Of a stretch of 51,768 nt of DNA, positions 7,508 through 13,676 are shown piece after piece. Location: assembly GCF_001687335.1 (NCBI RefSeq), contig NZ_MAGO01000014.1, positions 1-51,768 on the forward strand. The letters run 5' to 3'. The first letter of the stretch is position 1; each line of letters opens with the position of its first letter. The notes below the pieces were generated by a model that was given only the letters and a program-made list of their open reading frames with translations, was not told where the DNA came from and made no database searches. This DNA comes from Dissulfuribacter thermophilus (GTDB taxonomy: Bacteria > Desulfobacterota > Dissulfuribacteria > Dissulfuribacterales > Dissulfuribacteraceae). Both the position numbers and the translations under genes were made by a program.

Positions 7508-10171
7508 TTAAATTCGGTTCAGTCTCCAATCATAGGGAATATATCTCACTTTATACCCCGAATGGTCACTTTGGGCAAAAAGCCTGTCTTGTTCATCATA
7601 AAAATATTTAGAAATGAAAAGAAGGCGTTCCTCCATTGTCTTGCCAAAGTCAGCACCATACCATTTAAATATTTTCGATAAAATGAGGAGCCTTTCCTGT
7701 CTTACCAGTCTTGCCCCTCCGGAATTTATGAAGATCATTGCGGCGGTATCAAGTTGCATATCAAGCTCTTGAGGTGAATAAATAGAGATTGGAGGGCAAG
7801 ATGACGAAGCACACACAAGGGTAAAGTGTATTCTTGGGTCGAGGTGCTCCACCATAAATGCCCTTCTTGGGTCTCCGTATGAAAACGGTCTAAAGATACT
7901 CCAGGGCGGCCTCTTATTTCTCCTTAAAATACCGTGCTCAATATCATCTAGGCAAAAGATGTAGCCGCCTATGTTGTATCTCACCTGTCTAAAAAAGTTT
8001 GAAATTTCCTTTACAGAGTCCTTTATGCCCCAAGAAATTACCCCATGAATGGTCATTACATTGTAGAGATTAATCCAAAATGGCATCTTCTCAGAATCGT
8101 CTTTTAATTTGCTGAGATCAATCCGTTTTAATGCTCCTGCAATATCCAAATAATTTTCGTATAGTGGTGAAAAGGCCATTTCTTCATAGGCCACTCTCTT
8201 AGATTCAGATTTAAAAAAGGCCCCTCTCAATATATTCATTGTATCCTTTAGACGCTTTCCTATCTCTTGAGGAGATGAAAAGACGTAGGATGAATCCCCA
8301 TCGTTTAGGATCTTTCTATTCTTTTTGAGGTCACCGCTAGTTAACTTCGATCTTCTAGTAGAGTTTTCCTTCTGAGCCAATGCTCTTCTAAAAGAAGACA
8401 CACTATTTACAAAGCCAATATGGGTTAAGGCCTGTGGAAAATTTCCTAGAAACATATTCCAGTCATAGTCAAATTCCTCTGAAAATAGTCCTAGGTGATT
8501 GGCCATGTTGGAGAGTTCAAAAAGGAGGGTCTGGGCCTCGCCAAGTCGTCCCTGACCAACCAGATTTTCCACTAGCCAAAAAGTACATAAGGTGAAGGGG
8601 GCCTCTCCTCGTGGCATGCCATCTTCATTCAAATATCTATAAAGGAGGAATCCACTAGAAAGTTCTTCCACCACACTTTCCACTGTGGAGAGCATTTTGG
8701 GGTCTTTGAATTGGATAAAACCTGTAAGCGGTAACAAAAGGAGGCTGGAATCCAATTTGTCACTGTCATATGTCTGTACGAATGATTGCTTTTCCTGAGA
8801 CCATCCCTTTTCTAATACCTCTTTTCTGATCTCGTCTTTTTCTTTTTTCCACAGAGAGACCTCGCCTGGGAAACCATACCTCTTAGCTATATAAATCCCT
8901 TTATCAAGGGCATTCCAGCACATGACCTTTGAATATACATAGTGCCGTTCCCCTAACCTCGCCTCCCATATTCCGTTGTCTGGTAGTCTCCACGTGTTTG
9001 AAACATAATTACAAATTTCCCTCAGATATTCCCAAAAATCTAGATCTATCCGCCCCACATAGTCTGAAAGGTGAGTGGCAGCTAGCATAAGTTCCCCATA
9101 GATGTCGAGTTGTCTCTGAAGATGCGCAGCGTTTCCTATCCTAACAGGCCCTGAGCTCCTAAATCCCTCTAAGTGGTCTAATACCTGTTCCTCCATTGTC
9201 TGCTCTGTCCTGATTCCGTACATGATCTGTAGTCCTTTTGCCCCATCCCTCTTCAACAACTGTTTTATCCAGGACAGGTAATTTTCCATCTCTGTTAAAT
9301 GTCCCAGTTGATATAGGGCCTGTACTGTAAAGGCGGCGTCTCTAATCCAGCAAAACCTGTAATCCCAGTTTCTGGCTCCTCTGAGCTGTTCCGGTAGGGA
9401 GGTGGTTGGTGCAGCTACAATAGCCCCAGTATCCTTTGACTGAAGGAGTTTTAGAGTGATGGCAGACCTTCGCATGAGCCTTTCAAAGGGACCAAAATCA
9501 AGGATCTGGCCTGTCTCGTTTGTCTCTATCCAATTGGTCCAAAAAGTATAAATTTTATTAAATATTCTATGTACAAGTTGGGGATTTATATGGAAATCCT
9601 TTAATTTTTCATTTCCGATGGGTAGAAAAAAACACGCCTCCTCTCCCTGAGACAAGGAAAATTCAAAGACCTCTTTTTGGGGGTCAAAGTTCAAAGCCGG
9701 ATAGAAAAAGAGATGAAACTTTAGGTCCTTAAATTCGACCTTAAGGGCCGATCCACTGTCTTCATATTTGGGGCTATATTTGGCATAGGGATACCGTGGG
9801 GCAAAGATGACTCTAATTTTTGCGTTCCCACTTTTACAAAGACACCTCCTAAAGAGACCTCGTTTCAGAGGAAAAGAAGTCTGTTGGTCCGCTGTTATAA
9901 CCATAAAGTCAACAATTGACAGGACAGCGTCATTGGAACGCATATTCGTCTCAATAATCGCGGTGTCCTCTAGGTATCTTTGCGAAAAATCAGTTGTTTT
10001 CTCGAGACTAATCCTGAAGGTGCCGCCATTTTCTGCATCGAGTATGTCGGCAAATATACTTGGAGAGTCAAAGTAGGGAACACAAAGCCAGCCTATCGAA
10101 CCGTCCTTTCCAATGAGGCCGGCCGTAGAAAGGTCTCCAATTATTCCATAATCCTCTATTCCCAGTGGCAT
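7508..10171 (-). CDS. GH15 glucoamylase/trehalase-like protein fused to DUF547
   Basis: An 887-residue two-part protein. Residues 1 to about 600 are a GH15 glycoside hydrolase of the trehalase/glucoamylase-like bacterial group. Visible are the N-terminal EDYGIIGDLSTAGLIGKDGSIGWLCVPYFDSPS, the RNWDYRFCWIRDAAFTV catalytic-cleft motif, the candidate general acid in DNGIWEARLGERHYVYSKVMCW, and the candidate base in LFSEEFDYDWNMFLGNFPQALTHIG. Residues about 640-887 are a DUF547 domain, seen in MPFWINLYNVMTIHGVI, DDIEHGILR, DPRIHFTLVCASSSCPPISIYSP and the ILSKIFKWYGADF ending. No signal peptide is seen, so it is probably cytoplasmic. Substrate is likely an alpha-glucoside such as trehalose or a maltooligosaccharide; the DUF547 role is unknown. 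The start codon lacks a strong ribosome site. Confidence 0.88.
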   Translation of the reverse strand: MPLGIEDYGIIGDLSTAGLIGKDGSIGWLCVPYFDSPSIFADILDAENGGTFRISLEKTTDFSQRYLEDTAIIETNMRSNDAVLSIVDFMVITADQQTSFPLKRGLFRRCLCKSGNAKIRVIFAPRYPYAKYSPKYEDSGSALKVEFKDLKFHLFFYPALNFDPQKEVFEFSLSQGEEACFFLPIGNEKLKDFHINPQLVHRIFNKIYTFWTNWIETNETGQILDFGPFERLMRRSAITLKLLQSKDTGAIVAAPTTSLPEQLRGARNWDYRFCWIRDAAFTVQALYQLGHLTEMENYLSWIKQLLKRDGAKGLQIMYGIRTEQTMEEQVLDHLEGFRSSGPVRIGNAAHLQRQLDIYGELMLAATHLSDYVGRIDLDFWEYLREICNYVSNTWRLPDNGIWEARLGERHYVYSKVMCWNALDKGIYIAKRYGFPGEVSLWKKEKDEIRKEVLEKGWSQEKQSFVQTYDSDKLDSSLLLLPLTGFIQFKDPKMLSTVESVVEELSSGFLLYRYLNEDGMPRGEAPFTLCTFWLVENLVGQGRLGEAQTLLFELSNMANHLGLFSEEFDYDWNMFLGNFPQALTHIGFVNSVSSFRRALAQKENSTRRSKLTSGDLKKNRKILNDGDSSYVFSSPQEIGKRLKDTMNILRGAFFKSESKRVAYEEMAFSPLYENYLDIAGALKRIDLSKLKDDSEKMPFWINLYNVMTIHGVISWGIKDSVKEISNFFRQVRYNIGGYIFCLDDIEHGILRRNKRPPWSIFRPFSYGDPRRAFMVEHLDPRIHFTLVCASSSCPPISIYSPQELDMQLDTAAMIFINSGGARLVRQERLLILSKIFKWYGADFGKTMEERLLFISKYFYDEQDRLFAQSDHSGYKVRYIPYDWRLNRI

Positions 10172-10180
10172 CGTTTGATG

Positions 10181-11632
10181 CTACCCACAGGCCCTTCCTT
10201 TTAGATTAAAGAAAAATTTTAGGCCCTTTTTCACTCTATCTGAAAACACCTTTTTGGAAATAAAGGCCCCTACAACACGCTTATTGATTTCCCCAAAGGT
10301 TGGATATGGATGCACTGCCTGTGCAAGGGTTGAAGTTTTTACCCTTCCTTTAAGGCCTACAACCCAATAGGAAAGGAGATCTCCAGCCCTCGACCCAAGG
10401 ATCTGAATTCCCAAAGGTGTACCACTCTTATCCAGGAGTAGCTTAATCTCCCCTCTTTCAGCCCCTTCGCAAATTGCCCTGTCATTCCTATCAAAACTCT
10501 CTTCAAAGAGTTCATAATCAGTTCCAGATGCCTTGCACTGAGATTCATTCATGCCAATACAGGCAAATTCAGGGTCTGTGTAAGTACACCTTGGCATATA
10601 GGTATAATCAACCTTTCGAGGGATTCGAAATACGGCATTTGTGACGACAATCCCTCCCTCGTAACCCGCGGCATGGGTAAACTGATACTTTCCTATGACG
10701 TCTCCGGCTGCATAGATGTGTTTCTGAGTCGTTCTAAGCCTATCATCGACCTTAATGCCCTGCTTATCAAAATCCACTCCGGCCTTTTCCAAAAGAAGAC
10801 CATCGATATTTGGCTTTCTTCCCAGTGCTATAAGGATGGCATCACTTTGGACTGCGATGTCATCACCGGTTTCATTTATACCAATATCAACCCTTACACC
10901 ACCACCTATTGGCGTAATAGATTTGATCTTGGTCCCAAGGAAAAATTTAACCCCTTCTTCCTCTAAGATACCTTTTATCTCCTCAGAAAAATCAGGATCT
11001 TCGTTCTTGAGAATGCGTTCACTCCTTTGAATTACCGTAACCTTGGACCCTAACCTGGAAAAGGCCTGCGCCATTTCTATGGCAATGGCGCCACCTCCAA
11101 GTATAGTTAGCTCTTTAGGAAGCTTATCCATAAAAAAAATCGTTTTATTAGTATGATACGATACATCTTTGATTCCAGTTATAGGGGGAATCATAGGACC
11201 AGATCCAGTGGCTATACATATTTTTTTTCCACTGTAGATTTTGCCCTCTACTGAAATTGAATGTTCGTCAACGAACTCTGGATATCCAAATATCACCTTG
11301 GCCCCAAGAGAACAGAATCGTTCAGGGGAATCGTGTTTTTGAATGGTATTTATCACATGCCTTATCCTGTCTCTCACCTTGGCAAACTCTACTGGAGGGA
11401 CCTCGACCTGGGGTAGACCAAACTCAGGTCCACGTCTCATTTGATGATACAGACGCGCAGTCCTTATAAGGGTCTTACTTGGCACACAGCCATAGTGTAG
11501 ACAGTCTCCTCCAAGATTTGGCTCCTTTTCAATGAGAAGGGTCTTGGCTCCAAGTTGTGCAGCACCTGCCGTAACTGTAAGACCTGCCGCACCTCCACCT
11601 ATAACAATTAGGTCAAAATCATATTTGGCCAT
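10181..11632 (-). CDS. Dihydrolipoamide dehydrogenase/mercuric-reductase-like flavoprotein
   Basis: A 483-residue class I pyridine-nucleotide disulfide oxidoreductase. In order: FAD-binding IVIGGGAAGLTVTAGAAQLG, the redox-active disulfide GGDCLHYGCVPSKTLI, NAD(P)-binding ILGGGAIAIEMAQAFSRLG, the second FAD contact IYAAGDVIGKYQFTHAAGYEG, and the dimerisation-domain active site AVHPYPTFGEINKR (His-Pro pair). It has no N-terminal heavy-metal domain and no C-terminal Cys pair, which argues against a true MerA. It resembles the lipoamide-dehydrogenase-like group often linked to membrane DedA-type proteins. TGGAGG lies 5 bp before the ATG. It is transcribed divergently from the chimera gene and lies 9 bp upstream of the GH15 gene, so those two probably form an operon. 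Confidence 0.9.
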   Translation of the reverse strand: MAKYDFDLIVIGGGAAGLTVTAGAAQLGAKTLLIEKEPNLGGDCLHYGCVPSKTLIRTARLYHQMRRGPEFGLPQVEVPPVEFAKVRDRIRHVINTIQKHDSPERFCSLGAKVIFGYPEFVDEHSISVEGKIYSGKKICIATGSGPMIPPITGIKDVSYHTNKTIFFMDKLPKELTILGGGAIAIEMAQAFSRLGSKVTVIQRSERILKNEDPDFSEEIKGILEEEGVKFFLGTKIKSITPIGGGVRVDIGINETGDDIAVQSDAILIALGRKPNIDGLLLEKAGVDFDKQGIKVDDRLRTTQKHIYAAGDVIGKYQFTHAAGYEGGIVVTNAVFRIPRKVDYTYMPRCTYTDPEFACIGMNESQCKASGTDYELFEESFDRNDRAICEGAERGEIKLLLDKSGTPLGIQILGSRAGDLLSYWVVGLKGRVKTSTLAQAVHPYPTFGEINKRVVGAFISKKVFSDRVKKGLKFFFNLKGRACG

Positions 11633-11727: not shown

Positions 11728-13002
11728 ATGAAGATAGCCATTCTATCAGATATTCATGGCAATTTAGAGGCCATGGACAATTGTCTTAAAGACTTGGAAT
11801 CCAATGGAGTAGACACCATCATGTCTCTTGGAGACCTAGTTGGTTATGGTCCGGAACCAGATGGTGTTGTTCGCCTTGCACAGGCCCTCAAAATAAAATG
11901 CGTCATGGGAAATCATGATTATGCTGTTAATGCAGTATGTGCAGAAAGATGGTTCAATCCCCAAGCACGAACAGTTGTTGCAATGACAAGAAAATTACTC
12001 AGCGATCAAAGCCTTGATTTTTTAAAGACTCTTCCAAATACAATAGAGACGAACCATGCCCTCCTTGTCCATGGTTTTCCCCCGAATTCTTTCAAGACTT
12101 ACATATATATGGTGCCGGAAAAGGGGATTAAACGGGTGCTGGCCGCAATTGACAAGCGTATTGTATTCGTAGGCCATACCCATGAACTGTATCTATACGA
12201 ACTCTTGAAGAACAATGATCTCAGTATTCGACCATTAAAAACAGATCTGTATTCAGTCGGGCTAGTATTATACAAAATGCTTTCTGGCCATCTCCCCCAA
12301 AAAGACTGCCCTCTACATAGACTAAATCCTGACTGTGACAGGTCTTGGGATACATTCTTGGAGGGGGCACTATCAGAGAATCCCGAAGACAGGTTTAATG
12401 ACTCCCTTGAGATGGAACGAGCACTCTCCCAGCTCTTTTCGTCTTGGAGGGAAAAAACCCTGTCTAGGTGTCCCGTTAGGCCTACTTTTGAGTATAAAAA
12501 AGAAAAGAAAAATACCAATAAAATAGGTTACATACGCACTGATCCAATCCAGCTTGTTCCTTCACAGGCAAGACAGACTTTCAATCTGGATGAATCCTTT
12601 AGACCTATGATTTGGACTAAAAACGACTATGAAAAACTAAATAGCAAACTTGTCTTCGATAAAGAAACTGGCCTTCTTTGGGAAAGTTTGGGCTCTGCCT
12701 CTCCTATGACATGGTCTCAGGCAGTGATGCGAACACAATCACTGAATCAAAAACGTATTGGTGGAGTCAGTACTTGGCACCTTCCAACCATTGATGAACT
12801 TTTGACCATTCTAGACCCTGTTCCCCATAAGACAGGCCACTGTATTGTGAGCCTATTTGATGTGGAAAAGTCATGGCTATGGAGCTCTGATTGTGTTAAC
12901 AAAAAAAAGGCATGGTGTGCAAATGTACAAAATGGCTTTATTGGCTATAAGGACAAAAACTGTTACCTTTTTGCAAGGCATGTAGCGCGACTTAATATTT
13001 AA
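11728..13002 (+). CDS. Metallophosphoesterase / truncated Ser-Thr kinase / DUF1566 chimera
   Basis: A 424-residue chimera. Residues 1 to about 170 form a calcineurin-like phosphoesterase with all main metal motifs: SDIHGN (D8, H10), GDLVGYGP (D36), GNHD (N62, H63), LLVHGFP and GHTHE. Instead of the usual closing GS(V)GxPR segment, it runs into KTDLYSVGLVLYKMLSGHLP and later LSENPEDRF. These are the subdomain IX to XI pieces of a Hanks-type kinase, without the ATP-binding lobe, HRD loop or DFG. The last 110 residues are a DUF1566 (Lcl) domain: VFDKETGLLWE, WHLPTIDELLTILDP, WSSDCVNKKKAWCANVQNG. The ATG at 11728 begins the phosphoesterase fold; an upstream in-frame TTG at 11632 adds unrelated residues. 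The kinase part cannot be active; phosphoesterase activity is plausible. Confidence 0.8.
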   Translation: MKIAILSDIHGNLEAMDNCLKDLESNGVDTIMSLGDLVGYGPEPDGVVRLAQALKIKCVMGNHDYAVNAVCAERWFNPQARTVVAMTRKLLSDQSLDFLKTLPNTIETNHALLVHGFPPNSFKTYIYMVPEKGIKRVLAAIDKRIVFVGHTHELYLYELLKNNDLSIRPLKTDLYSVGLVLYKMLSGHLPQKDCPLHRLNPDCDRSWDTFLEGALSENPEDRFNDSLEMERALSQLFSSWREKTLSRCPVRPTFEYKKEKKNTNKIGYIRTDPIQLVPSQARQTFNLDESFRPMIWTKNDYEKLNSKLVFDKETGLLWESLGSASPMTWSQAVMRTQSLNQKRIGGVSTWHLPTIDELLTILDPVPHKTGHCIVSLFDVEKSWLWSSDCVNKKKAWCANVQNGFIGYKDKNCYLFARHVARLNI

Positions 13003-13016
13003 AGCAAAAGGAGACG

Positions 13017-13676
13017 ATGAAGTTGAGATTCAAGGCCTACCTGTTTGACATGGATGGAGTTGTTTTAAACAGTATGCCCTATCATGTAAAGGCATGGCAG
13101 GAGGCGTTTCAAGAATTTGGGCTGACAGTTTCCCCAAATCTACTCTACCTCTATGAAGGTGCAATTGAACCTGACACAGCAGTACAGCTATTTTGTAACA
13201 ATGGATGCACTATAACAAAAAACGATTTTGAAAAAATATTGGCGCGACAAAAACAGATCTTTCAGGAACGCTATAGGGTCTTAGTAAGTCCGTATCCAGA
13301 AATACCAGAGATACTTTCGACCCTTTTTGGCATGGGTGCATCCACAGCCCTGGTTACCAGTTCCCATAGAGAGATTCTGAACTCTATTTTGCCAAAAGAA
13401 ATTTTGGCATATTTTAACTGCGTGATTACCGGGGATTCCGTTGAAAGGAGAAAACCTTATCCCGATCCGTATCTGAAAGCCATTGAGGCACTGGGAGCAA
13501 CATCTGATGAAGCTGTTGCAATTGAAAATGCCCCATCCGGCATACTGTCTGCAAAACAGGCCGGCGCCTCCTGTATAGCTATAAAGACCACCCTTGATGA
13601 ACAACACTTACAAAAGGCCGATATGGTAGTAGAAGACCACAGGGAACTAAAAAGTGCTATTTGTCATACAAAATAA
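13017..13676 (+). CDS. HAD hydrolase, beta-phosphoglucomutase-like
   Basis: A 219-residue HAD-superfamily subfamily IA protein. Motif I is FDMDGVVLNSM with nucleophile D and acid/base D two residues on, followed by the PYHVKAWQEAF cap entry. Motif II is ALVTSSHREIL. Motif III and IV regions appear as RRKPYPDPYLKAIEALG and AIENAPSGILSAKQAGASCIAI (E-N-A/S-P-S-G is typical of phosphoglucomutase-like phosphatases). It likely dephosphorylates or isomerises a sugar phosphate; the exact substrate is open. AGGAGA precedes the ATG at good spacing, 15 bp after the chimera gene, and the next gene overlaps its end by 23 bp, so the three probably form an operon. Confidence 0.92.
   Translation: MKLRFKAYLFDMDGVVLNSMPYHVKAWQEAFQEFGLTVSPNLLYLYEGAIEPDTAVQLFCNNGCTITKNDFEKILARQKQIFQERYRVLVSPYPEIPEILSTLFGMGASTALVTSSHREILNSILPKEILAYFNCVITGDSVERRKPYPDPYLKAIEALGATSDEAVAIENAPSGILSAKQAGASCIAIKTTLDEQHLQKADMVVEDHRELKSAICHTK

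Follow-up and report, generated by a model that had tools for sequence, protein, structure and literature searches.

What has brought a phosphatase-like enzyme, the tail of a protein kinase and a DUF1566 domain together in a single reading frame of Dissulfuribacter thermophilus is the question raised by one locus in the window (the whole stretch of 51,768 nucleotides that was analyzed). The first-pass annotation offered two interpretations: a deletion that joined a phosphatase gene in frame to a kinase-DUF1566 gene, or a novel architecture in which the kinase tail resembles a scaffold. The comparisons described below favor the first. The open reading frame (ORF) is likely to be a real and probably recent remnant of a conserved two-gene unit, left by an in-frame deletion of about 815 bp.

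Composition of the fused reading frame

The N-terminal part of the ORF is a calcineurin-like metallophosphoesterase (MPE; PF00149/PF12850). The frame is open across all 424 codons, with no stop or frameshift (Table 1). The relatives favor the ATG at 11728 as its start; the TTG start at 11632 in the ORF list is a mechanical extension and was rejected. Scans for promoters and terminators gave signals no better than those in shuffled sequences.

Table 1. Coordinates of the fused ORF, its parts and its downstream neighbor
Feature	Position	Strand	Size, basis or comparison
Fused ORF: shortened MPE, remnant of a kinase C-terminal lobe and Lcl_C/DUF1566	11728..13002	+	424 aa
MPE, residues 1-170, every metal-binding motif present	11728..12237	+	69-70% identity to G002 MPE
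Fusion junction, TTA AAA ACA, codons 170-172	12235..12243	+	comparison with G002 sequence
Kinase C-lobe remnant, TDLYSVG (subdomain IX, helix F) onward	12238..12460 (3' limit approximate)	+	homology to intact kinases
Lcl_C/DUF1566 domain (PF07603)	12649..12984	+	Pfam
HAD hydrolase (beta-phosphoglucomutase/phosphatase-like)	13017..13676	+	14 bases 3' of fused ORF

In Pfam searches the Metallophos model matches residues 1-153 (E=3.3e-16) and Lcl_C/DUF1566 matches residues 308-419 (E=3.1e-18; 66.6 bits against a cut-off of 34.9; positions 2-116 of 117). The middle segment matches PF00069 at residues 171-192 with an E value of 0.15, which is below the Pfam cut-off, and kinase models of the PknB type align to residues 171-276. 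Residues 166-421 are 50% identical (E=1.2e-83) to the kinase-DUF1566 protein of G002, the closest relative in which the module is present; this identity rules out an ordinary extension with no kinase similarity. The Pfam domains and this alignment bear out the chimera of MPE, kinase remnant and DUF1566 that had been described from the sequence.

The kinase segment shares with bacterial Hanks kinases of the PknB type the C-terminal lobe from subdomain IX onward, and this lobe is homologous to that of intact kinases. It differs from them in lacking the ATP lobe, catalytic loop, DFG and APE; the missing motifs comprise the Gly loop, the VAIK-type Lys, HRD, DFG and APE. Judged by the presence of an ATP lobe, HRD and DFG and by a score above the Pfam cut-off, the ORF does not encode a Hanks-type kinase. 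Compared with G002, about 196 residues have been lost, from the N-terminus through APE. The kinase tail had been said to begin at DLYSVG without its ATP lobe and catalytic loop, which is correct, and APE is missing as well. Because it has neither the ATP-binding lobe nor the catalytic loop, the remnant would be unable to phosphorylate.

In the MPE half the DxH, GD, GNHD, H and GHTH motifs are all found, with the metal ligands D8, H10, D36, N62, H63, H115, H150 and H152; the first reading had likewise stated that all metal motifs are present. Its final segment had been noted as absent, and comparison with the intact family puts the loss at the last ~76 residues, including NAGSVGQPRDGD. The near-invariant GSVGQPRDG motif of this MPE subfamily is gone, as are the C-terminal strands. 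An intact relative (L040; predicted structure, pLDDT 95.7) has strands at 174-176, 182-187, 200-206 and 211-217 past the fusion point, together with two helices, and its predicted fold matches 3rqz along essentially its full length. The best Foldseek and phmmer match is 3rqz, the metallophosphoesterase of Sphaerobacter thermophilus, which belongs to the same MPE family and has all metal motifs, GHTH among them, but unlike the fused ORF retains complete C-terminal strands and the sequence GAVGQPRDGD. SapH/Spr1479 (3qfm), an asymmetric Ap4A hydrolase and phosphodiesterase, shares the fold of the intact MPE family but is only 20% identical. Having lost two helices and four strands from its C-terminal end, along with the nearly invariant GSVG motif, the truncated MPE is probably unstable or inactive. 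A structural model of the fusion is mostly below pLDDT 50 after the junction, which is weak evidence because the low values are due in part to an alignment made of MPE relatives only, with no kinase or DUF1566 sequences.

The intact gene pair in relatives

G002 belongs to the same family as D. thermophilus. At G002:C192 (L007/L073) it carries a 248-aa MPE gene and a complete 446-aa kinase-DUF1566 gene that overlap by 4 bp and are followed by a HAD gene; the kinase-DUF1566 protein matches PF00069 with an E value of 9.5e-42. The locus shares gene order and flanks with the fused ORF, the MPE being 70% and the kinase tail and DUF1566 about 50% identical, but it consists of two complete overlapping genes. 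Separate phosphoesterase and full kinase-DUF1566 genes, which the first-pass annotation had proposed looking for, are thus present side by side at the syntenic place. The collinear flanks comprise genes resembling those for phosphoserine aminotransferase, dihydrolipoamide dehydrogenase, HAD, a membrane protein, a response regulator and a histidine kinase (names read from the sequences). The HAD neighbor is in the same place in G002 and elsewhere in more distant relatives.

The sole exception to this shared flank order is an extra gene of the window at 7508-10171 on the minus strand. It is an 887-aa ORF composed of a trehalase-like N-terminal domain, a GH15 glucoamylase and a C-terminal DUF547, and it separates two genes that are direct neighbors in G002. 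The difference suggests an insertion in the window or a loss in G002.

A survey of the phylum, with one genome per species, found at least 35 genomes in which both parts have a match. The two parts are adjacent on one strand with the MPE first in at least 30 of the 35 genomes tabulated, and the gap between the window-matching parts of these adjacent pairs is 795-1048 bp. In G004 the two genes overlap as they do in G002. The MPE-kinase-DUF1566 gene pair recurs across the phylum. No description of the pair, whether as MPE-Hanks or as kinase-DUF1566, was found in the literature searched. While a single deletion is a modest curiosity, the recurrent pair that it exposes is the more useful result.

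Among the matches listed, a fused MPE-kinase is found in none of the 35 genomes. Two candidates for a second fusion were rejected: G383:C327, with a match over 3-206, and L042 of Nitrospinota, with a match over 1-190, are ordinary MPE genes of 249 and 242 aa. The new-architecture interpretation, which lacks a second example among these matches, found no positive support. What argues for the deletion is the gene pair itself, intact and syntenic in G002 and with its members adjacent in other genomes of the phylum.

The kinase gene linked to MPE varies among these genomes. It is split by frameshifts in G003, G027 and G186 (L069 2373-3616, L070 1432-2228 and L065 1687-3097), which may reflect either decay in parallel or errors in the sequencing of these draft genomes. 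In G040 and G045 it is short (281 and 267 aa; L071 2251-3096 and L072 2739-3542) and has no Lcl_C/DUF1566 match; DUF1566 is thus a variable component of the module.

The junction and the missing segment

The fusion had been placed near 12235, which agrees with the junction codons found by comparison with G002. To the left the sequence corresponds to CCATTAA of the G002 MPE gene and to the right to ACAGA of the kinase gene; about 815 bp between these points in G002 are absent from the window. No repeat lies at the junction, the region of which is present once in the genome, and there are no direct repeats of note at the breakpoints. The MPE and kinase genes of G002 lie in different reading frames; an open fusion could therefore result from only one of the three length classes of deletion, the one to which this deletion belongs.

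Loss of the same ~815 bp through an assembly error, between two genes that are truly intact, is quite improbable, even though the locus is represented by a single assembly. The junction lies outside repeats, the breakpoint regions of G002 have only a 5-nt word in common, and no other contig carries the missing parts. The published draft of D. thermophilus S69T (27 contigs, 2,524,218 bp) was obtained by 454 shotgun sequencing with reads of 411 bp on average and about 90 Mb in total (PMC5276818). It is apparently the same assembly, for which we calculate a coverage of ~36x. The genome of the window has 27 contigs and 2,524,199 bases, and a search of all contigs found no other copy of the missing MPE and kinase parts. 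Because the junction region is unique and the missing parts are nowhere else, misassembly appears unlikely as the source of the junction.

According to the deletion model, the ancestor would have had an MPE gene followed by a Hanks kinase-DUF1566 gene, as in G002, and the loss of ~815 bp inside the pair would have left one open hybrid frame. The deletion would have put an end to kinase activity and probably have impaired the phosphatase severely. Being in frame by chance, it would have allowed the closely spaced downstream HAD gene still to be translated. The outcome would most likely be a recent remnant of a phosphatase-kinase module which the family can do without.

Divergence and dispensability of the module

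Trees and Tajima relative-rate counts indicate that neither half of the fused ORF is generally accelerated relative to the intact genes of G002. The exception is a raised value (21 vs 7) in the MPE comparison with G004, one of the four outgroups used for the MPE. Conserved sites showed no clear excess of change in either half. The lack of acceleration or decay means that the deletion is recent or that the fusion product is constrained, and both fit.

Constraint would be expected if the fusion were functional, with the truncated MPE still acting as a phosphoesterase, the helices of the kinase C-lobe completing or positioning it, and with DUF1566 binding the ligand of the former kinase. The open frame, intact metal ligands, unaccelerated halves, and retained translation start and downstream gene are consistent with such a product, but it is known from one genome only (among the matches listed), the lost part of the MPE holds core strands and the near-invariant GSVGQPRDG, and an in-frame join is expected by chance for one-third of deletions. 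A functional fusion is thus unlikely. Also unlikely is a working single chain that replaces the separate kinase and phosphatase of the relatives and unites a shortened MPE with a kinase C-lobe devoid of catalytic function and a DUF1566 sensor domain. The absence of visible decay after the deletion would also suit an origin during culture of the type strain, with both genes retained in natural populations; this is very improbable.

The window genome has no match to a PF00069 kinase or to PP2C_2. G001, the second family member, has neither an MPE match nor a PF00069 kinase; the module is thus dispensable in the family, and tolerance of its loss favors a remnant. D. thermophilus would then be a naturally occurring case of a genome whose pair is disabled and that has no PF00069 kinase left. 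If this is confirmed, the strain provides a ready comparison for the function of the signaling pair. Another ORF of the window genome, G000:C11:111797-112672 (L002, L003), has no kinase match; its single open frame of 360 aa contains two stretches that resemble DUF1566.
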